Shown here piece by piece: positions 9,315-48,588 of a DNA stretch of 48,588 nucleotides (position 1 is its first letter; each line of letters opens with the position of its first letter). A program made the translations under genes and the position numbers. The DNA lies in the NCBI RefSeq assembly GCF_007993045.1, contig NZ_VOOR01000040.1, positions 1 through 48,588 on the forward strand, given 5' to 3'. This stretch comes from Phaeodactylibacter luteus (lineage in GTDB: Bacteria > Bacteroidota > Bacteroidia > Chitinophagales > Saprospiraceae). Under the pieces are notes generated by a model, which made no database searches, was not told the DNA's origin, and saw only the letters and a program-made list of their open reading frames with translations.

Positions 9315-12300
9315 TTAGTCAATGAGACGGATGTTGCGCAGGCCATAGCTTTCGCAGTAAGGGCTACAGCCAGTGGTCTGGAAATTGAGCACGGGAGAAG
9401 CCCCATCCCCGCAATCGGTCCTGATCCGGTATTCATAGGAGGTACAGGGGCTGAAGCCTGCCAGGGATGCGAGGTTGGAAGCGGCCTCAAAGCTGGCCCA
9501 TTGGGCTGTGCCTGCAATCCGGATATCGAGGAAATAGAGGGAGGCGCCGTCCACTGCAGGCCAGGTGAAGTTGGCCCGCGTAGGCTGCAGCCCGGAATGG
9601 GCAGCTGAGCCAGGCGGATCACAGCTCGTGTTGGCTTGTTGGGTCACGGAAATAGCTACGGGGCTGGCCAGCCCATTGGGGTCGGTCAGGGCCACCGAAG
9701 TAAAGCGGGAAGTGCCCAAGGGGTTGGCGGTGTAGCTGAGGGTGACCGTAGCCGGGCCGCTGCCGCTCCCAGGAGATAGCCCGGTGATCCAGCCTACATT
9801 TTCGTTCAGCTGCCAATTGACGTTGGCACTGACTTGGAAGGTGGTGCTGCCGGCCTCAGGTGGCAATACGATATTCGTTGGGCTGGCAGAGAGCAAAGGG
9901 GTAGCCCCTTCCTGGAAAATTTGGACATTCCGGTTGATCCCGCTGCTGTTGACGACAATCGTTGCACTTCTGCCTTGGGGGGAGGGGTTGGGCTGGCAAA
10001 TGATCTGACTGCTGCTGCCTGAGCCTGTGCCCGGGGAAGCGCTCAGCCAAGATTGGCTTCCAGCAGGGATGCTGATGCTCCAACTGTTATTTGCGGTGAT
10101 GTTAATGCCCTGAGTGCCTCCTGTGGCCTGAAAAGTCAGGCTGTTTGGTGTGACGGTCAGCGTAGGGGCTGGGGCGGAAAGGTTGAGGGAATAGTCCTCT
10201 ACATCGCTCCGGCCGTTGACCTGGCAGGGGGTAGGATAGCCTTCGGTGCTCATGGCGACGCGCATCCTGACCTGCCCGGTGAGGGCGGCAGCCGGCACGG
10301 TGAAATTGGCCGTGGTGGGGGCTGTGACGCCCGATGTTTTGGAGACGATCTGCTCCCCGGCGTCGTTGAAGTCGGCATCCCCGTTGAAGTCGGCCCAAAC
10401 GCGCCAGTAAACGAGGTTGGCGGTAGCGTTGGTGGACTCGTCGGGGTCGAGGGTGATGGTGTAGGACTGGCCTTTCTGCAGGCTGGCAGACTGAGGGGTG
10501 AAGTCGGAATGCCCATATCCGTTGCCGGAAGGGTTGCTGAGGTTGGCCAGCGCGACCCTTTCGATCCAGTTGTCGAAGGAGTTGCCGTAGGCATAGCAGT
10601 GGTCGTCCCCGCAGCCGAGGGTAGGCACGGTCAGGGAGGAGCTCCAGGGGCCGGGCACGCCATCGCAGACGGACTGCACCTGCACTTCGTAGAAAGAGCA
10701 AGGGGTTTTATTGAGGGAAATGATCCCGGAGAAGTCGGTGAAGGTAGACCAGGAAGCGGTGCCCTGCTGCCGGAAGCGGACGTTGTAGCCCACCCCAGTT
10801 TCATTGTCCCAATTGACGACAAAATGGGAGTAGCCGTTGCTGGTCAGGGCAATGCCAGTGGGCGGGTTGCACGCTGGGGCGGAAAGGTTGAGGGAATAGT
10901 CCTCTACATCGCTCCGGCCGTTGACCTGGCAGGGGGTGGGGTAGCCTTCGGTGCTCATGGCGACGCGCATCCTGACCTGCCCGGTGAGGGCGGCAGCCGG
11001 CACGGTGAAATTGGCCGTGGTGGGGGCTGTGACGCCCGATGTTTTGGAGACGATCTGCTCCCCGGCGTCGTTGAAGTCGGCATCCCCGTTGAAGTCTGCC
11101 CAAACGCGCCAGTAAACGAGGTTGGCGGTAGCGTTGGTGGACTCGTCGGGGTCGAGGGTGATGGTGTAGGACTGGCCTTTCTGCAGGCTGGCCGCCTGAG
11201 GGGTGAAGTCGGAATGCCCATATCCGTTGCCGGAAGGGTTGCTGAGGTTGGCCAGCGCGACCCTTTCGATCCAGTTGTCGAAGGAGTTGCCGTAGGCATA
11301 GCAGTGGTCGTCCCCGCAGCCGAGGGTAGGCACGGTCAGGGAGGAGCTCCAGGGGCCGGGCACGCCATCGCAGACGGACTGCACCTGCACTTCGTAGAAA
11401 GAGCAAGGGGTTTTATTGAGGGAAATGATCCCGGAGAAGTCGGTGAAGGTAGACCAGGAAGCGGTGCCCTGCTGCCGGAAGCGGACGTTGTAGCCCACCC
11501 CAGTTTCATTGTCCCAATTGACGACAAAATGGGAGTAGCCGTTGCTGGTCAGGGCAATGCCAGTGGGCGGGTTGCACGCTGGGGCGGAAAGGTTGAGGGA
11601 ATAGTCCTCTACATCGCTCCGGCCGTTGACCTGGCAGGGGGTGGGGTAGCCTTCGGTGCTCATGGCGACGCGCATCCTGACCTGCCCGGTGAGGGCGGCA
11701 GCCGGCACGGTGAAATTGGCCGTGGTGGGGGCTGTGACGCCCGATGTTTTGGAGACGATCTGCTCCCCGGCGTCGTTGAAGTCGGCATCCCCGTTGAAGT
11801 CGGCCCAAACGCGCCAGTACACGAGGTTGGCGGTAGCGTTGGTGGACTCGTCGGGGTCGAGGGTGATGGTGTAGGACTGGCCTTTCTGCAGGCTGGCCGC
11901 CTGAGGGGTGAAGTCGGAATGCCCATATCCGTTGCCGGAAGGGTTGCTGAGGTTGGCCAGCGCGACCCTTTCGATCCAGTTGTCGAAGGAGTTGCCGTAG
12001 GCATAGCAGTGGTCGTCCCCGCAGCCGAGGGTGGGCACGGTCAGCGAGGAGCTCCAAGGGCCGGGCACGCCATCGCAGACGGACTGCACCTGCCATTCGT
12101 AAGTGGTACAGGGCAGTTTATTCAAAGATGTATGGCCAGAGAAGCCCTCCAAAAATATCCAATCAGTATCTCCCAGCCTGCGGTATCTGACGTTGTAGTC
12201 CACTCCGGATACATTATCCCAGTTTATCTGGAAATGGGAGTAGCCTTGAGAAGTGATTTCAATGCCGGTAGCAGGAGGGCAGAAGCCAGGAGTTGTAAAG

Positions 12301-14015
12301 GTCTCCGATTGCGACCACTCGCTCCAGGTGCTGCCGCAGCGGACCGCCACTACGTACTCATAAGTCTGGCCGGGGGCAAGGTTGCTGATGGTAGCCGAAT
12401 TGGTGGGAGTGCCATCGATGTTGACCCAAGTGCCGCCGACTGGGCGGTAGGCCCAGTCATAGAAGTCTACGTTGGGCGTAGTGCAGTTAAGCCGTGCAGA
12501 GGAGGAGGTAATGTTGCTGGCAAATATTTGGGAAAGGGTAGGGGGAGAGCAGCTCTCTCCAAGGTATCCCTCCAAGGCATTCTCCAAGTTGGGCAATGGG
12601 CCGATTTTTTGGGAAGCCGGATATTGGCCGCTTTGCTGTGGCAGGCCAGTCGAAACCAAGAGCCCCCGGAGCTGAAGGGGGTCCAATGGCCCGCCGTTTT
12701 GTTCAATTTGGATGGCCTGTACCAAAGCTGCTGCGCCTAAAACGATAGGGGAAGCGGAAGAGGTGCCGCCAAAAGAACTGGTATAATAATAATTCGGGCC
12801 TTCGTTATCGTAGGCATCTCCATCGCCAGTTGTCCAAACGTTCTCTCCAAAGCCCTGTAGGTTGACACGGCTGCCATAGTTGCTGAACCATAGACGGCTC
12901 CTTGCCGTTTGAGACCCGGTGGGTGCAGAGGCGCCGGCGCCTACAATGATCGCTCCGGAATCATTGGCATTAGAAAAGGGGTAATGGTTGTTGTTGCCAC
13001 TCTGATTAGCGTTGGCGTCAAGGTTTTGGCTCCCATTCCCAGCCGCCTCCACTACGTTTCGCCCATTGCCGACCGCCAGCACGATGGCATCATAATAGGG
13101 TTGTATGTATTCTACTGCTACGAGCCCGGTTTGACCAGATCCAGTTTGGTTTGGGCCTGCTACCTGCTGCTCAATCAGCAGAAAGTCACCAACAGAGGTG
13201 ACCTGCAGCGATTGGAGGACAGAATTGGCGATATCGTACTGCCCAGCGCTGTTGTGCGCCCCGGCGAAGTAAAGGCTGGCCTGTGGCACAATGCCCGTTA
13301 TCCCAAAGCTGTTCTCTCGCCCCCCTAGTATGCCAAGAACGGCCGTGCCATGGTCGTTGCCAAAACCATTAAAAAAGGAAGTCCCTCCCACTATGGATAC
13401 GTTGGGGAGGTCGAAGTGGTTTGCGTTAAAGCTGTATTCAATGTCCACAATCCTAAGCCCCTGCCCTTTTTCTCCAAAGTTGGCATATACCCAATCGGCG
13501 CCAATGCCATGTGCTGCTGTCAGGTAGGTCTGATTGGGCACAAAGTTGCCGGGGGGCAAAGGAGGGGCAACGGCCTCGGGGAGGCGCCCGGCATAGGTGA
13601 TGGCTGGGATTTGCCTAGACCGTTCAAGGGCTTCTTCTATGCTGAACCCCGGGCGGATCGTCAGGTAGAAATAGGTGTTGAAATCCGCAACCTTCTTAGG
13701 GGCCAGCGTTTTGGAGGCTTGCGTTTTTTGGTCCCAAAAAGATTGGGCAGTGCTTTGGTACTCCAAGAGCGTTTCCCTGTTGATCCCTTGGATGTAAGGG
13801 CTGAAATGCCCTATTTCAGCCAGCTGGTAAAAGCCTGTTGTATCCGAGGCTACCGTTAGGAATTGCAGCTGTCCGTTTTCGGCTTCTGCTACAGTGCCTT
13901 CTGCCCATTTGATGCAGATCGCCTGGCTGGGCGCATCAGCGCCCGGGGCAGGCAAGGTTTGGGCAGTTAGCCCTGAAAAGCAGTAAAGGCAAAAGAGTAG
14001 GATTGTTTTTTTCAT
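9315..14015 (-). CDS. S8 peptidase with fibronectin III / GEVED / BACON array, no T9SS tail
   Basis: 1566 aa. Signal peptide (ends about residue 19), propeptide, then a peptidase domain at about 160-475 with the full triad: Asp191 (RIVDIEYSF), His222 (NDHGTAVLG) and Ser419 (GGTSSASP); Asn327 sits in AAGNG. Residues about 490-1280 alternate fibronectin III and GEVED modules, including three nearly identical blocks of 235 aa. Two BACON modules (about 1285-1465) and a last fibronectin III module follow. The protein stops in CESYGLRNIRLID, which resembles the first strand of a GEVED domain, so the end looks truncated and there is no sorting domain. It is the first gene of the secreted cluster. 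The peptidase call is firm; export by T9SS cannot be supported. Confidence 0.9.
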   Translation of the reverse strand: MKKTILLFCLYCFSGLTAQTLPAPGADAPSQAICIKWAEGTVAEAENGQLQFLTVASDTTGFYQLAEIGHFSPYIQGINRETLLEYQSTAQSFWDQKTQASKTLAPKKVADFNTYFYLTIRPGFSIEEALERSRQIPAITYAGRLPEAVAPPLPPGNFVPNQTYLTAAHGIGADWVYANFGEKGQGLRIVDIEYSFNANHFDLPNVSIVGGTSFFNGFGNDHGTAVLGILGGRENSFGITGIVPQASLYFAGAHNSAGQYDIANSVLQSLQVTSVGDFLLIEQQVAGPNQTGSGQTGLVAVEYIQPYYDAIVLAVGNGRNVVEAAGNGSQNLDANANQSGNNNHYPFSNANDSGAIIVGAGASAPTGSQTARSRLWFSNYGSRVNLQGFGENVWTTGDGDAYDNEGPNYYYTSSFGGTSSASPIVLGAAALVQAIQIEQNGGPLDPLQLRGLLVSTGLPQQSGQYPASQKIGPLPNLENALEGYLGESCSPPTLSQIFASNITSSSARLNCTTPNVDFYDWAYRPVGGTWVNIDGTPTNSATISNLAPGQTYEYVVAVRCGSTWSEWSQSETFTTPGFCPPATGIEITSQGYSHFQINWDNVSGVDYNVRYRRLGDTDWIFLEGFSGHTSLNKLPCTTYEWQVQSVCDGVPGPWSSSLTVPTLGCGDDHCYAYGNSFDNWIERVALANLSNPSGNGYGHSDFTPQAASLQKGQSYTITLDPDESTNATANLVYWRVWADFNGDADFNDAGEQIVSKTSGVTAPTTANFTVPAAALTGQVRMRVAMSTEGYPTPCQVNGRSDVEDYSLNLSAPACNPPTGIALTSNGYSHFVVNWDNETGVGYNVRFRQQGTASWSTFTDFSGIISLNKTPCSFYEVQVQSVCDGVPGPWSSSLTVPTLGCGDDHCYAYGNSFDNWIERVALANLSNPSGNGYGHSDFTPQAASLQKGQSYTITLDPDESTNATANLVYWRVWADFNGDADFNDAGEQIVSKTSGVTAPTTANFTVPAAALTGQVRMRVAMSTEGYPTPCQVNGRSDVEDYSLNLSAPACNPPTGIALTSNGYSHFVVNWDNETGVGYNVRFRQQGTASWSTFTDFSGIISLNKTPCSFYEVQVQSVCDGVPGPWSSSLTVPTLGCGDDHCYAYGNSFDNWIERVALANLSNPSGNGYGHSDFTPQSASLQKGQSYTITLDPDESTNATANLVYWRVWADFNGDADFNDAGEQIVSKTSGVTAPTTANFTVPAAALTGQVRMRVAMSTEGYPTPCQVNGRSDVEDYSLNLSAPAPTLTVTPNSLTFQATGGTQGINITANNSWSISIPAGSQSWLSASPGTGSGSSSQIICQPNPSPQGRSATIVVNSSGINRNVQIFQEGATPLLSASPTNIVLPPEAGSTTFQVSANVNWQLNENVGWITGLSPGSGSGPATVTLSYTANPLGTSRFTSVALTDPNGLASPVAISVTQQANTSCDPPGSAAHSGLQPTRANFTWPAVDGASLYFLDIRIAGTAQWASFEAASNLASLAGFSPCTSYEYRIRTDCGDGASPVLNFQTTGCSPYCESYGLRNIRLID
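10171..12091. repeat. 705-bp in-frame tandem repeat inside the S8 peptidase gene
   Basis: Copies begin at 10171, 10876 and 11581, exactly 705 bp (235 codons) apart. The third ends near 12091, where the fibronectin III module diverges. Copies differ by only a few bases. Each unit encodes one GEVED plus one fibronectin III module. The low divergence points to recent duplication or gene conversion. Confidence 0.9.
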
Positions 14016-14429: not shown

Positions 14430-14580
14430 CAGCGGCCTAGCGCTGCGAAGGGGTAGCAGCCCGTCAGGGCCGAGCGGACAGCGAGCCCCGCAGCATAGCG
14501 GCACCTGCCTTCAGGCAGGTGCAGGCTCCACCCCTTGGTGCAGGAGAAGCTCCAAAAAAGTGACAATTTTGTTTTGCGCC
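14430..14580 (+). mobile_element. Family A MITE-like element, copy A2
   Basis: Good core match with the hairpin CCTGCCTTCAGGCAGG and a right end GACAATTTTGTTTTGCGCC that fits the family terminal repeat. The left terminus is not recognisable; the unit may begin somewhat before 14430. Confidence 0.65.
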
Positions 14581-15248: not shown

Positions 15249-15410
15249 TGCCTTAAGTCATAAATCTCTGATACTTAAGTTGAAGTTGTTTTCCGGCTAA
15301 TCAAGGCGAAGGTTCGCGACTTTAGCCCGAGCTAAAGGAGCGGTTCTTTAACGAAAAGTAGGCGGAAAAGAACGAAACTTGGGGAGTCAAGGATTTATGG
15401 CTTGAGGCAC
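15248..15410 (-). mobile_element. Family C MITE, copy C1 (163 bp, TA target)
   Basis: Terminal inverted repeats GTGCCTTAAGTCATAAATC and GATTTATGGCTTGAGGCAC, flanked by TA on both sides (15246-15247 and 15411-15412). It is the reverse complement of C2 (21114-21276), about 96% identical by eye. TA duplication is typical of IS630/Tc1-mariner-type transposition. There is no coding capacity. It contains the conserved loop ending in CGCCTTGATTAG. Confidence 0.85.
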
Positions 15411-19055: not shown

Positions 19056-19215
19056 ATTGGGAGGGGCCTGCCCCTGCCTAATGGCAGGTGCCGCTATGCT
19101 ACGGGGCTCGCTATCCGCTCGGCCCTGACGGGCTCTTACACCCCTTCGCAGCGCTAGGCCGTTGCCAGCCCAAAGCCCCGGAAGGCTAAGCGCCTGCGAT
19201 ATATTGGTTTCGCCC
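19056..19215 (-). mobile_element. Family A MITE-like element, copy A3 (reverse orientation)
   Basis: Reverse-complement core with GGTTTCGCCC at 19206-19215, which is the family's left terminal repeat. The other end is degenerate. It lies between the M16 stop codon and the terminator hairpin at 19224, so transcripts run through it. Confidence 0.7.
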
Positions 19216-20872: not shown

Positions 20873-21051
20873 TCAAAAAACAGGGCACTTGCGGTAAGAG
20901 CGTGTTGGGATTTTGGCCTTCTAGCCGAAAACCGGAGTTTAGCCAAGCCCCGCTTTTTATGCACAAAAGCGGGAAGGATTTTCGGGGCGAAGTATAAGCG
21001 AAAAAGTGTCCCGCTGTCTAGCGGGATAGACCGATTGCTAAAGTCCCAATA

Positions 21052-21420
21052 GGGCGTGAACCAAATTGTTGCGGGCGTTTACGCTTTCCGGGCTTTAGGC
21101 TGGCATTGGCTTAGTGCCTCAAGCCATAAATCCTTGCCACCCCAAGTTTCGTTATTTTCCGCCTACTCTTCGTTAAAGAACCGCTCCTTTAGCTCGGGCT
21201 AAAGTCGCGAACCTTCGCCTTGATTAGCCGGAAAATAACTTCAACTTAAGTATCAGAGATTTATGACTTAAAGCACTAGCGCTGCGAAGGGGTGGCCGAA
21301 GGCCAGACCCGAAGCCTGCAGGGCGAGGGGCCGAGCGGACAGCGAGCCCCGCAGCATAGCGGCACCTGCCCGTTGGCAGGGGCAGGGCCCATCCAGAAAA
21401 ACGCCAATCTGGTTTGCGCC
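21052..21420 (+). mobile_element. Family A element, copy A4, interrupted by C2
   Basis: Starts GGGCGTGAACCA and ends TCTGGTTTGCGCC, imperfect inverted repeats. Inserted in B2: flanks GTCCCAATA and CTTCCAACA could be a decayed 9-bp target duplication (6 of 9 match). About 204 bp remain when C2 and its duplicated TA are removed. Confidence 0.85.
21114..21276 (+). mobile_element. Family C MITE, copy C2 (163 bp), inside A4
   Basis: Inverted termini GTGCCTCAAGCCATAAATC and GATTTATGACTTAAAGCAC, with TA on each side. Uninterrupted A copies read GGCCTAGCGCTG at this spot, so the TA inside CTAG was duplicated. An internal 15-bp stem (21151-21165 with 21225-21239, one mismatch) encloses the conserved loop. 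Confidence 0.88.
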
Positions 21421-26592: not shown

Positions 26593-27174
26593 ATGGATAT
26601 CCTGAACCAAAAGCTGGTCCTCGCTTCCAAGTCGCCACGCCGCTCCCAATTGCTGCGGCAGGCAGGTTTTTCTTTCGACATACGCCCCCTCGATGTCCCC
26701 GAGGATTACCCTCCCGAAATAGACCCCCTGGAGGTGGCGCCTTTCCTGGCGAAAAAGAAAGCCGATGGGGGCAAACACCTGCTTCAGGAAGGGGAGATCC
26801 TGCTGACTGCCGATTCAGTAGTGATCCTCAATGGCAAGATTTATGAAAAACCGCAAGGCCAGGAGGATGCACACCGGATTTTGCGCCAGCTTTCTGGCAA
26901 TGTGCACACGGTAGTCACTGGGGTCTGCCTGTCTGACGGGCAGCGGGAAAAAGTCTTCGCGGGCCATTCCAAAGTGCACTTTGGCGAACTGTCGGAGGAG
27001 GAGATCGCCTACTACGTGGAGGCATGCAAGCCTTATGACAAAGCTGGCGCTTACGCCATTCAGGAGTGGATAGGGCTTTGCAAAATTCATAAGATCGAAG
27101 GCACTTATGCCAATATTATGGGCCTGCCAGTAGATTTGGTCTATGCCGAGCTGGCTGGCTTCCTCAAAGCCTAG
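26593..27174 (+). CDS. maf: Maf family nucleoside triphosphate pyrophosphatase
   Basis: 193 aa, normal length. Family signatures: ASKSPRRSQLLRQAGF at the N-terminus, the TADSVV segment holding the catalytic Asp, and KPYDKAGAYAIQEW. Maf proteins hydrolyse dTTP/UTP or modified nucleotides to monophosphates. It starts 21 bp after the UbiA gene, completing a kdsC-ubiA-maf operon. The TAG stop is made of the TA target plus the first base of a family D element, so the element replaced the native downstream sequence without changing the protein length noticeably. Confidence 0.94.
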   Translation: MDILNQKLVLASKSPRRSQLLRQAGFSFDIRPLDVPEDYPPEIDPLEVAPFLAKKKADGGKHLLQEGEILLTADSVVILNGKIYEKPQGQEDAHRILRQLSGNVHTVVTGVCLSDGQREKVFAGHSKVHFGELSEEEIAYYVEACKPYDKAGAYAIQEWIGLCKIHKIEGTYANIMGLPVDLVYAELAGFLKA

Positions 27175-27336
27175 TGGTCTGTCAAGGCTAAAACTAGGGG
27201 TTGCCTGCGGCGACTTTTGAGGCTACTCTTCGTTGGACAACCCCTTACGTAGCCCTGCTATGCGCGGGAACATCCGCCTTGATTAGCCTCAAAATCCGCT
27301 CCCACTCAACCCATAAATTAACACTTGACAGACCAC
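27174..27336 (+). mobile_element. Family D MITE (163 bp, TA target)
   Basis: Perfect 13-bp inverted ends GTGGTCTGTCAAG/CTTGACAGACCAC, extended to 15 bp by the flanking TA. Same length as family C. An internal stem of 16 positions (27210-27225 with 27284-27299, two mismatches) encloses a 58-nt loop that matches the family C loop. No coding capacity. Confidence 0.85.
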
Positions 27337-27338
27337 TA

Positions 27339-27368
27339 GTGCCTCAAGCCATAAATCCTTGACACCCC
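27339..27368 (+). mobile_element. Truncated family C left end
   Basis: GTGCCTCAAGCCATAAATCC and the next 10 bases match the left end of C2 (one mismatch over 30 bp), then the similarity stops. It shares its TA with the right edge of D. D probably inserted into the TA at the boundary of an older C element that sat on the maf stop codon. Confidence 0.7.
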
Positions 27369-35882: not shown

Positions 35883-36202
35883 GGGCGCACCATCAGACGT
35901 GGTGCGGCAGGGATCATTGTAGGGTTAGCATGGTACCTCCCTTCCTACGCATTGCCTTTTTCCAGCCGCTTACCTGAGGCTAGCTTCTGAAGGAGTGCAG
36001 CCCAAAATATTGTTGGCGTTTGTGCTACAGCCTGGCATTGGCCTAGCGCTGCGCAGGGGTGTAAGCCCGCAGGGCCGAGCGGGCAGCGAGCCCCGGAGCA
36101 TAGCGGCACCTGCCTGCTGGCAGGGGCAGGCCCCCTCCTGAAAAAGCCGGCCCGTGGTTAAAAACAGCGCATCTCCCACGGCACAGCCCTGATGCATCGG
36201 GC
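35883..36202. other. Convergent intergenic region with hairpin and family A copy
   Basis: 320 bp. A 7-bp stem CGCACCA/TGGTGCG at 35886-35906 lies just after the cysteine desulfurase stop (no T run; weak terminator at best), then a family A element. No gene is seen. Confidence 0.55.
35996..36171 (+). mobile_element. Family A MITE-like element, copy A5
   Basis: Good core (GCCTGGCATTGGCCTAGCGC, GGGCCGAGCGGGCAGCGAGC, hairpin CCTGCCTGCTGGCAGG). Both terminal repeats are degenerate (left CCCAAAATATTG region, right GTGGTTAAAAACAGCGC). Confidence 0.65.
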
Positions 36203-41654: not shown

Positions 41655-42083
41655 TAGGAGTGATGAAGTTAAGATAGATCCTTTTGCCCCGGGCCGCTGC
41701 ATGCCGCCTGGGGCTTTTCCTTGCGTGGGCCCCACTACATCGGACTGCTATTTTTGGGGGCTCCCCCTGCCCGGTGGCAGGGGGCGCTATGCTGCGGGGC
41801 TCGCTATCCGCTCGGCCCTGTCGGGCTTCCCACCCCTCCGCAGCGCTAGCCCGTTGCAAAGCGGTCAGCCCGGGGTTTCTTGTTTGAGCCCCGCGGGCTT
41901 TGCCAGGCCAGGTAGCAGCCCCGCTGTATGCGCGGGAGGGCAAAGCGCGCGTGGGGTGGTCCTGCATCAGGAAAAGAGCTGCCAGTCGAGTGCCTAAGGA
42001 GTTGCAGCCAATTAGGAAAATGAAAATCCAGAACGGTAAGCAAATACAATTCTGGATTTTTAGGAAGAAATTTAAAACGCGGG
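41655..42083. other. Convergent intergenic region with family A copy
   Basis: About 430 bp. Contains element A6 and, near 41910-41940, a segment GCTGTATGCGCGGGA resembling the hairpin arm of family D (GCTATGCGCGGGA). Composition shifts to A+T-rich at about 42000. No gene is supported; a 128-codon frame is repeat translation. Confidence 0.5.
41735..41890 (-). mobile_element. Family A MITE-like element, copy A6 (reverse orientation)
   Basis: Reverse-complement core (CGCTATGCTGCGGGGCTCGC, CCGCTCGGCCC, CCGCAGCGCTAG) with the hairpin CCCTGCCCGGTGGCAGGGG. Termini are degenerate. Confidence 0.65.
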
Positions 42084-43100: not shown

Positions 43101-43541
43101 ATGCGACAAGACTTCAGATGCGATTGCCCGTTCACCTCAGCCTTAGACGTTCTGGGGGACAAGTGGATTTTGGTTATCGTAAAGCAAATGCTCATTGAAG
43201 GCAAGGAGACCTTCAAGGACTTCACAGAAAGCGAAGAGGCCATAGCGACTAATATCCTTTCTGCCAAACTCAAAATCTTGGAAGAAGTGGGCATTGTCGT
43301 CAAAACAAAACGGCCGAACAACAAAAAGACCAACCTCTACCTCTTGACAGAAAAGGGCTTGGCGTTGGCCCCCATTCTTGTGGGGCTTGCGGCTTGGAGC
43401 GATAAGCATCTTAGAGACATTCATCCCACTATCGTAGATGGGGAAGAAATGGTTTTTTTGAGAAACGATCAGGCCGCTTTTGGCAATGTATTGGTGGCGG
43501 AATACAGGAAAAAATTGGCTAAGACCGTGTTGGGAGTTTAA
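43101..43541 (+). CDS. HxlR family winged-helix transcriptional regulator
   Basis: 146 aa. Typical HxlR pattern: Cys near the N-terminus (RCDCPFTSALDVLGDKWILVIVKQML), recognition helix region EAIATNILSAKLKILEEVGIV and wing TKRPNNKKTNLYLLTEKG. HxlR proteins bind DNA as dimers, often with Cys-based redox or aldehyde sensing; here two Cys occur in RCDC. It probably controls its own gene and the divergent SnoaL-like lipoprotein gene. A+T-rich like its partner. Confidence 0.9.
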   Translation: MRQDFRCDCPFTSALDVLGDKWILVIVKQMLIEGKETFKDFTESEEAIATNILSAKLKILEEVGIVVKTKRPNNKKTNLYLLTEKGLALAPILVGLAAWSDKHLRDIHPTIVDGEEMVFLRNDQAAFGNVLVAEYRKKLAKTVLGV

Positions 43542-43560
43542 AATTTGGTCTGCACTTGCC

Positions 43561-43642
43561 GAATTTTGTGCTGCTCAGCGTTAAAAATACTCGCCGATGC
43601 TGCCGGCATCGACTCCGTTTTTCGCCTTGATTAGCATATTCC
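43561..43642 (+). repeat. Module E: conserved loop shared with families C and D
   Basis: Loop 43573-43632 shares GCGTTAAA near its 5' side and TCGCCTTGAT at its 3' side with C and D. It contains its own hairpin CGATGC/GCATCG. The enclosing stem is short and different (TGCT/AGCA, then GAAT/ATTC). No terminal repeats were found around it. Confidence 0.55.
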
Positions 43643-43807: not shown

Positions 43808-43813
43808 TTTAGA

Positions 43814-43972
43814 GAGCGTGTTGGGATTTTGGTCTTCTAGTCGAGAGCCGGAGTTTACCCAAGTCCCGCTTTTGATGCACAAAAGCGGGAAGGATTTTCG
43901 GGGCGAAGCATAAGCGAAAAAGTGTCCTGCTGTCTAGCGGGATAGACCGATTACTAAAGTCCCAGCACGCCC
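43814..43972 (+). mobile_element. Family B element, copy B1 (159 bp)
   Basis: Inverted termini GAGCGTGTTGGGATTTTGG and CTAAAGTCCCAGCACGCCC. Flanked by TTAGA on both sides (43809-43813 and 43973-43977), a likely 5-bp target duplication. Internal perfect hairpin TCCCGCTTTT/AAAAGCGGGA and a smaller GC hairpin. No coding capacity. Confidence 0.82.
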
Positions 43973-44024: not shown

Positions 44025-44205
44025 GGGCGTGAACCAAAATGTCATAGGCGTTTATGCTTTTGGGGCTCTAGCCTGGCATTGGCCTAGCGCTGCGAAGGGG
44101 CAGCAGGCCTGATAAGGCCGAGCGAAGAGCGAGCCCCGTAGCATAGCGGCACCTGCCCTCACGGCAGGGGCAGGCCCCCAAAAAAACGACAATCTGGTTT
44201 GCGCC
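44025..44205 (+). mobile_element. Family A element, copy A7, complete with target duplication
   Basis: 181 bp beginning GGGCGTGAACCAAAATGTC and ending GACAATCTGGTTTGCGCC, imperfect inverted repeats of about 19 bp. Perfect 9-bp flanking duplication TCATTGATC at 44016-44024 and 44206-44214. This is the reference copy of the family. Confidence 0.9.
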
Positions 44206-47904: not shown

Positions 47905-48225
47905 ATGGAACACCTCTCTTGGCTACAGCCGGTGGTGCACTACAGCCTGCACCTCCTGGCCCCGGGCTTGCTGGGCTTCTTGTTTTTCCGCAGTCAATGG
48001 AAGCGGGCGTGGGGCATTATGCTGCTGACTATGCTCGTGGACCTGGACCACCTGCTTGCTACCCCCGTGTTCGACCCGGGCCGTTGCAGCATCGGCTTCC
48101 ACCCTTTGCACTCCTTTCCGGCTATTGGGCTATATGTGCTGTTGCTGTTCTGGCCCAGGGCCCGGATAGCTGCGGTGGGGCTGTTGTTCCACATGCTCAC
48201 CGATTTCCAAGACTGTTTGTGGTAG
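47905..48225 (+). CDS. DUF6122-like small integral membrane protein
   Basis: 106 aa from the ATG at 47905 (MEHLSWLQPVVHYSLHLLAPG). Three to four hydrophobic segments. Conserved-looking polar residues lie in or near the helices: HYSLH, DLDHLLATPVFDP, RCSIGFHPLHS and FHMLTDFQDC. The His/Asp pattern suggests a membrane-embedded metal-dependent hydrolase-like site, but function is unknown. Upstream in-frame codons (47881-47904) overlap the leader and are less likely. Confidence 0.75.
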   Translation: MEHLSWLQPVVHYSLHLLAPGLLGFLFFRSQWKRAWGIMLLTMLVDLDHLLATPVFDPGRCSIGFHPLHSFPAIGLYVLLLFWPRARIAAVGLLFHMLTDFQDCLW

Positions 48226-48588
48226 CTGGCATTGCTCTTTGCCCTCCCTGTCTCTGTGACGAAAACAGGCACAGAGGCACTGAGTACACAAAGCAGCACA
48301 GAGATAAAACGCTCCGTGTACCTCCGTGCGCTCCCTGTCTCCGTGACGAAAACAGGCACAGAGGCACTGTGACACTGAGGCCCACAGAGATAAAACGCTC
48401 CGTGTACCTCCGTGCGCTCTCTGTCTCTGTGACGAAAACAGGCACTGATGCACTGTGACACTGATGCTCACAGAGATAAAACGCTCCGTGTACCTCCGTG
48501 CGCTCTCTGTCTCCGTGACGAAAACAGGCACTGATGCACTGAGTACACAAAGCAGCACAGAGATAAAACGCTCCGTGTACCTCCGTGC
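48226..48588. other. Repeat-only region at the window end
   Basis: Apart from the 86-bp tandem array nothing is seen. Frames of 115-180 codons across it on both strands are translations of the repeat. Confidence 0.7.
48250..48588. repeat. 86-bp tandem repeat array
   Basis: Units begin at 48250, 48337, 48423 and 48509 (GTCTCYGTGACGAAAACAGG), 86-87 bp each; the last is cut by the window edge. All units share AGATAAAACGCTCCGTGTAC and differ mainly in the middle. Within a unit GCACAGAGGCAC can pair with GTACCTCCGTGC. Not CRISPR-like (no unique spacers). Confidence 0.9.

Follow-up and report, generated by a model that had tools for sequence, protein, structure and literature searches.

The window analysed here, a stretch of 48,588 nt from Phaeodactylibacter luteus, contains short repeats in which similar loop sequences are carried by stems of differing sequence. 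This raises the question of whether a structured module is conserved within these repeats, how it spreads, and whether it is selected as a folded RNA or as single-stranded DNA.

Elements of the window and the fold of their core

Element C is present in two orientations. C2 is a MITE of 167 nt at 21112..21278 on the + strand (TA-GTGCCTCAAGCCAT ... ATGACTTAAAGCAC-TA; locus L003), and its structured core at 21159..21231 (+) is supported by folding, by alignment and by a match to the covariance model R3 described below (E 1.6e-4). C1 (15242..15412, - strand) is an inverted copy of C2, 96% complementary to it over 171 nt, a few bases beyond the element ends; its core at 15293..15365 (-) was recognised as a covariance-model match (R3 E 0.002). 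Element D occupies 27172..27338 (+) and also measures 167 nt (TA-GTGGTCTGTCAAG ... CTTGACAGACCAC-TA). Its core at 27219..27290 (+) rests on alignment and a model match; R3 misses it at E<=1, calling only E, C2 and C1 in the window. According to the repeat comparison of the window, D is abutted by a left-end fragment of a C-family MITE at 27337..27368 (+). C and D are full-length MITEs with complete inverted ends. For E, only the left arm and the core (CGTGTTGGGAG...) are recognisable in the window, at 43526..43638 (+), with no recognisable right end; a complete copy is found at locus L014. The core of E at 43567..43638 (+) is based on pattern and alignment (R3 E 9.8e-5). In the whole genome, the inner hairpin of C has 102 matches, and E was seen twice among the matches listed for the core pattern, namely in the window and at L014.

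Two strands of 9 nt each, CTCnnCGTT and CGCCTTGAT, are common to C, D and E and are opposed across an internal loop. In C2, CTCTTCGTT at 21166-21174 faces CGCCTTGAT at 21216-21224 on the + strand; direct reading places the start of the left strand and the end of CGCCTTGAT at 27226 and 27283 in D and at 43574 and 43631 in E. The sequences between and around these strands differ among C2, D and E, yet they mostly pair. Because the shared strands face each other, the conserved unit is a 9 by 9 nt internal loop and not a 60-nt conserved loop, as an earlier note on this DNA had described it; most of the remainder differs. The positions given there for the three loops are exact for C2 and D, and for E they are one base too wide on each side. 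From outside to inside, the core consists of the outer stem P1, loop I (left strand ending in CGTT, right strand GCCTTG), P2, which begins with R...Y beside the loop, a short and poorly kept P3, loop II and the hairpin P4. Examples of loop II are CTC-A opposite CTC-CG and TACTCG opposite CTGCG. That the enclosing stems differ between C, D and E and still pair is seen in the alignment. The outer stem of C, given as CCGCCTA/TAGCCGG, does pair but contains one C.C mismatch, and the inner hairpin of D is formed by CGTAGC/GCTATG instead of the proposed CCC-GC/GC-GGG.

On either strand, none of 200 dinucleotide shuffles folded as well as C or D (z -4.2 to -6.9). The fold of E is weaker, with z -2.3 on the + strand (8 of 200 shuffles as good) and z -1.1 on the - strand (33 of 200). 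A genome-wide search with the pattern CGTT-N30-60-CGCCTTGATTA gives 79+60 occurrences, compared with 0+0 for the reversed control. No Rfam family reached its gathering score in the window, in 20 loci or in 7 ERIC loci, and in 12 further loci only rRNA, tRNA and StyR-44 did so, all in L365 and none for the core. Weak Rfam matches near C2 were at chance level and off the core. A reading as integron attC was rejected due to the wrong order of AAC and GTT, and one as a known ribozyme because no known core was recognised by eye.

Two other repeat families border the elements. A 152-nt repeat (93%) lies at 20897-21048, just upstream of C2, and at 43813-43964, downstream of E. Close to its start it contains the terminal sequence of MITE E, GCGTGTTGGGATTTTGG, and R3 calls no core in either copy. 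A GC-rich family of ~100 nt (GGGCCGAGCGGACAGCGAGCCCCGCAGCATAGCGGC...) is found in both orientations at 127-227, 14432-14532, 19059-19142, 21293-21393, 36037-36137, 41755-41838 and 44107-44161, one copy being located directly 3' of C2.

Mobile carriers, hosts and the probable link to ERIC

The suggestion that the module travels inside MITEs was confirmed by a rule for terminal inverted repeats (TIRs) that is independent of the covariance model: 153 of the 180 copies with enough flank have TIRs, compared with 9 of 862 random positions of the same loci. The elements have a median length of 163, with 131 of 154 falling within 156-172, and are dispersed in many copies without room for a transposase gene, which meets the definition of a MITE. 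At 78% identity over core and arms, 198 copies fall into 75 families, between which the terminal repeats vary. Since several loci with D-type ends were absent from the match list of the model, 16 further ones were fetched. Of these, 15 carry an entire D element and every one of the 15 has the core; at the remaining locus only one end is visible. The elements C, D and E are non-autonomous MITEs of ~160-170 bp with a conserved structured module in the middle, and the same core is found in MITEs of several phyla with differing TIRs.

Many ends are flanked by TA, TWA or CTAG on both sides. By eye, TTA/TTA, TAA/TAA or CTAG/CTAG occur at many of them; no statistic or empty-site comparison stands behind this, and palindromic targets blur the limit. 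The target and the style of the TIRs resemble IS5-type insertion, and these MITEs may be of IS5 type. The movers of the core are probably IS5-like, judged by the TA or TWA targets and without a transposase search. No pair of MITE ends at insertion-sequence distance was present among the matches listed for three draft genomes (G432, G000 and G023). Two unusual forms were observed: a D-type MITE of ~232 bp at L066 (G002), in which a further palindrome is inserted beside loop I, and a double-core element with two cores on opposite strands 34 nt apart (G735 loci L405-L410, L382 and L396).

A covariance model built from 7 sequences of this genome (R1) gave at least 150 matches in the genome itself and matched 19 of 39 close-kin genomes, its own included, with up to 100 copies in one relative. 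A second model from 27 diverse copies (R2) matched 49 of 395 genomes of the class, again including its own (E<=0.001, stricter filters). In the phylum of an Ottowia genome it matched 84 of 299 genomes, that genome included, and in one family of this phylum, whose gene content suggests Gammaproteobacteria, 18 of 34. At least 120 stretches were found by a pattern scan of named species genomes. The matches listed include Saprospiraceae, Chitinophagales, Aquimarina, Draconibacterium and Cerina as well as several Bacillota, two MAGs of Planctomycetota and Ottowia thiooxydans DSM 14619. As the pattern scan favours one type of loop II, it is no census. Many of the matching genomes are MAGs for which misbinning is possible; named strains among the matches listed are Pseudoflavonifractor sp. 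An44, Cerina litoralis F89 and the Ottowia. BLAST of single copies against plasmids gave one Cupriavidus fragment, and two further such queries gave no match. In viral contigs, searched with the type-E pattern only, there was no occurrence.

ERIC elements have been known from enterobacteria since about 1990. We fetched ERIC copies through the ERIC primer stretch, which yielded nine loci, with L421-L423 counted as one because they are three records of the same place. The majority of the aligned copies have the sequence GCGTTGGC ... CCCCAGTCA-hairpin-CTCCTGGGG ... GCCGCCTTCC. They contain a CGTT/GCCTT strand pair and a TCA/CTCC strand pair, and thereby resemble the core in the loop strands GCGTTGGC...GCCGCCTT and in the TCA-hairpin-CTCC arrangement. 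The elements of the window are not ERIC proper: R2 does not recognise ERIC, its best score being 7.2 bits in the wrong register, because an extra loop in ERIC cannot be bridged. A third model, R3, was built from three long-type elements of the Ottowia phylum, with no ERIC and no window sequence. Its top three matches in 10.4 kb fall on ERIC copies and are correctly in register (E 3.9e-5, 6e-4 and 0.009). A further two ERIC loci matched at E 0.37 and 1.9, so that 5 of 9 were found at the right place, and the best non-ERIC match had E 0.021. The remaining four loci (L421, L424, L428 and L430) gave no convincing R3 match at the ERIC core. R3 rests on three sequences only and its E-values are rough. 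This comparison of sequences is good but not final evidence that ERIC and the window elements share the core.

Like the MITEs described here, ERIC (IRU, RU-1) is an imperfect palindrome without coding capacity that has short TIRs and ends in TA, and it is described with a target duplication (PMC2229807); here, TA (or TWA) termini occur in many families. ERIC differs in its length of 127 bp versus ~163 bp here and in its extra asymmetric loop between the two conserved loops. ERIC is described from enterobacteria and Vibrio and not from other phyla (PMC10969869, PMC2267715, both available in part); a survey of stem-loop families lists it for E. coli, V. cholerae and Y. pestis (PMC2267715). Within the accessible portions, the term Bacteroid- is absent from the main text of this survey and from the 2024 MITE review (PMC10969869). 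Outside ERIC, no description of this core was found in the literature searched, by topic or by sequence string. The module can therefore still be called undescribed, within that literature, for its members in Bacteroidota, Bacillota and Planctomycetota. The kind of element is not new, since the known ERIC/IRU of enterobacteria appears to carry the same core. What is new beyond ERIC, again as far as the literature was searched, are the hosts, the ends, the length and strong covariation for an ERIC-like core. If the link to ERIC is true, a local repeat becomes a widespread element that offers many natural variants for ERIC research, and the question of a factor reading both loops becomes directly testable.

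Other known repeats are less similar. REP/BIME elements and REPINs are also short hairpins with conserved unpaired bases, often near genes, and are thought to affect mRNA stability among others. The elements described here have TIRs, TA/TWA targets and no GTAG or CGTC tag. REPs measure 20-40 bp and bear a tag, either GTAG or CGTC; RAYT transposases accompany those with GTAG (PMC3733652). A REP reading was ruled out by length and tag. Correia/NEMIS elements are likewise MITEs; their transcripts form folds that RNase III cleaves (PMC2229807, PMC10969869). The core is present in Ottowia (see above), a member of the Comamonadaceae. The Betaproteobacterial repeat element BRE is ~90 bp long, transcribed and found in Bordetella and Comamonadaceae; unlike our elements, BREs occur in tandem (PMC3110155, as far as accessible). 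BRE may be another branch of the core, although no BRE sequence was compared.

Covariation of the stems and position relative to genes

In an alignment of 27 copies (A7), 89.3% of the cells were paired. The covariation score of 0.792 compares with 0.216 +- 0.017 in shuffled alignments, none of 500 reaching it, and with 0.15 or less for slid partners. Double changes were present in 21 of 23 pairs, a number matched by 98 of 500 shuffles. A second alignment (A10, 25 distinct rows) from the Ottowia phylum, a phylum other than that of the training set of the model, scored 0.639 versus 0.156 +- 0.016. Because related sequences inflate covariation scores, substitutions were also simulated along a FastTree tree (77 distinct rows, 60 null alignments). 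In this tree-aware test, E<0.05 was reached by 15 of 23 helix pairs; elsewhere among the 2346 column pairs it was reached once, by 33-60, a pair stacked on P4. The pairs below this level were 12-79, 16-76, 19-73, 21-71, three P3 pairs and 39-54, some of which hardly vary. The alignment was fitted to the model and leans towards structure; we judge this bias to be small because the nearly constant loop strands anchor the alignment. Covariance model and covariation statistics thus agree in giving many copies, significant covariation and pairing stems, and the interpretation in the earlier note that a folded form is under selection is supported.

Gene calls for the orientation tests followed a simple longest-ORF rule. 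Among intergenic MITE copies, the upstream gene was on the same strand in 80 of 144 cases (p 0.21), which is no significant orientation bias. Of 157 MITE copies examined for a nearby stop codon, 42 were sense, 31 antisense, 11 both and 73 neither (sense versus antisense 42/73, p 0.24). The elements were closer to 3' than to 5' gene ends (87 vs 57, p 0.015). A strand test based on wobble pairs was mixed, with 67 A.C vs 13 G.T in P1 and 28 G.T vs 7 A.C in P4; in TIR-less copies the counts were too sparse.

The TIR-less copies were taken from a set of 57 loci of the Ottowia phylum (A12), most of them from one family, with 67 matches, of which 16 have and 51 lack a TIR. Within 45 nt upstream of the 51 TIR-less cores, 12 had a stop codon on the same strand, counted for ORFs of >=100 aa, one had it on the opposite strand and 38 had neither. 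With two speD copies counted once, the ratio is 11 to 1 (p 0.006). The 45-nt limit was chosen after looking, and the ORF of L382, one of the 12 sense cases, is only 114 aa long. The distance from stop codon to core is 14-29 nt, except for 42 nt at L369. By NCBIfam, the upstream genes are speD, guaB, nqrF, a prpC-like citrate synthase, nadM-like, dnaK, groEL and mreB. The NCBIfam scan for dnaK was made in one of two genomes, and the gene upstream of L369 remained without a name. A further same-strand case, at 24 nt, is tuf (L374, identified by eye and cut by the contig end). Four genomes have the core in an rRNA spacer, on the strand of the rRNA and behind a tRNA. In three of them this is tRNA-Ile, which ends no more than 10 nt before the core (ARAGORN); in L365 the core lies between two tRNAs. 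Over all hosts, at a looser distance and without recognised TIR (n=78), 20 cores were sense, 14 antisense, 4 both and 40 neither. On this count, the sense bias is restricted to short distances and, for the most part, to a single host group.

The cores of L394 (G760) and L400 (G753) both lie behind dnaK in one family, and their stems differ yet pair; they may be inherited or have arrived separately. The same core is found behind speD and before a terminator-like hairpin in L339/L358 (G494) and in L360 (G578), and the speD copy of these two genomes is probably one fixed, inherited copy.

Four of the nine ERIC loci are also behind a same-strand stop codon, namely L421 (behind cusC), L427, L430 and L431 (behind groL); the last of these parallels the core of L397 behind groEL. 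L425 has an opposite-strand stop codon, L426, L428 and L429 are elsewhere, and L424 is unannotated. The window fits this arrangement in part. The first TAG of D is the stop codon of a Maf-family ORF on the same strand (26593-27174), and the ORF before E (43101-43541) terminates within the left arm of E. The right-hand neighbour of C2 is on the opposite strand and the left-hand one is ambiguous.

Form in which the core is selected

We lean towards an ERIC-like structured module on MITEs that is selected mainly as a folded transcript, and hold this reading with moderate confidence. Observed are the pairing stems, the near-constant loop I and the differing TIRs; selection as a transcript is inferred. 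ERIC is co-transcribed and destabilises the upstream message in an orientation-dependent manner through an RNase E site, according to the parts of the literature available (PMC2229807, PMC10969869). A transcript-level role of the + strand is favoured because the TIR-less cores show an arrangement similar to that published for ERIC. Where the core is intergenic or part of a 3' untranslated region, the + strand would fold immediately behind the ribosome as it terminates. The loops might then be read by a factor of RNA processing or decay, which would determine how stable the upstream message is, in line with the published effect of ERIC. For the MITE, the gain would be that its insertion is tolerated or even useful, and certain hosts may have retained copies in rRNA spacers and downstream of strongly expressed genes. 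By swapping or drift of the terminal repeats, transposases of different insertion sequences, probably IS5-like, could move the same core. RNA as the selected form rather than single-stranded DNA remains a preference, as no transcript was seen and no factor is known.

The main rival is that the core folds as single-stranded DNA or as a cruciform and thereby aids the movement of the MITE: one strand would fold at replication, the ends would meet, and a transposase or a conserved host protein would read the loops, comparable to REP or attC hairpins. We consider this rather unlikely. In its favour, gene orientation is irrelevant among MITE copies, the wobble test favours neither RNA strand, and elements of different families and phyla keep to a length of about 163 bp. 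A fourth argument comes from loop II of element C, which in the 100 listed of 102 copies reads TCC/GTC (85), TCC/GCC (9), TCC/GGA (3), GAC/GTC (2) or CCC/GGA (1). In six of these copies several bases have changed so that the loop is closed or almost closed, in either direction; the two-base changes GAC and GGA give a perfectly complementary loop II from either side. We infer template switching in a quasi-palindrome as the origin of these changes. Selection is then not required to restore pairing, and a DNA strand probably folds in the cell. However, the TIR-less copies, which are presumably immobile, keep loop I and the internal loop II and sit on the same strand behind stop codons. Moreover, transposases that recognise terminal repeats need no conserved centre.

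The same apparent corrections in six of 100 listed C copies are what a reading without any selection on the fold would expect. According to it, an old MITE lineage kept its arms complementary by hairpin-templated repair, and the loop strands stem from common ancestry or recent horizontal transfer. The argument that pairing-preserving changes suggest selection is consequently supported by the covariation but not proven by such changes alone. Such repair would, however, erase mismatched loops. Of the 75 family representatives, 70 retain CGTT, 72 retain GCCT and 69 retain both; an inner arm with uninterrupted pairing occurs in none of the 69. Among all copies, such an arm was found in L149 and the truncated L194:150, and also in L053, which is without CGTT. 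Nor would recent transfer leave the stems strongly diverged and the loop strands not. Since the loops persist across families though correction erases them, while the stems change, the simplest reading is that they are held by selection. Selection on the fold is thus well supported, and its absence improbable. MITEs are usually viewed as short-lived leftovers of insertion sequences whose interior is not worth keeping. That 69 of 75 families retain the loop strands despite the turnover of stems and ends means that something inside the MITE is needed.

A transcription signal, be it a terminator, an antiterminator or a site on duplex DNA at which a protein binds direct repeats (for example CTGCGTT), can largely be set aside. 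In its favour, type-E copies have CTGCGTT on both arms, several copies lie (by eye) between a stop codon and a terminator-like hairpin, and some are in rRNA operons, the setting of antitermination. Against it, the core has T runs before it and A runs after it in C, D and many Bacteroidota copies, the reverse of an intrinsic terminator, and A before and T after in the L226, L327 and L341 families, so that no consistent terminator layout exists. The second CTGCG is missing from C, D and the G023 family, and duplex recognition leaves the covarying stems unexplained.

Returning to the folded transcript, we speculate, tentatively and with the odds rather against it, on a wider picture. A single module, older than today's families or repeatedly transferred, would be carried by small transposons in at least four phyla, be kept behind dnaK, groEL and tuf and in rRNA spacers in some hosts, and be read by a factor common to bacteria. 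ERIC would then be its enterobacterial branch. CORE-SINEs have a conserved centre and exchangeable ends; the MITEs could be their bacterial counterpart, hitch-hiking on different transposases.

Two further repeats of the window were observed. Three 300-nt repeats of 99% identity and 705-nt spacing are located at 10168-11877, within an ORF of 1566 aa (9315-14015, - strand). As they recur every 705 nt in this ORF, the protein probably has near-identical repeats of 235 residues. At the right end of the contig, an array of an 86-nt repeat extends over 48199-48588.
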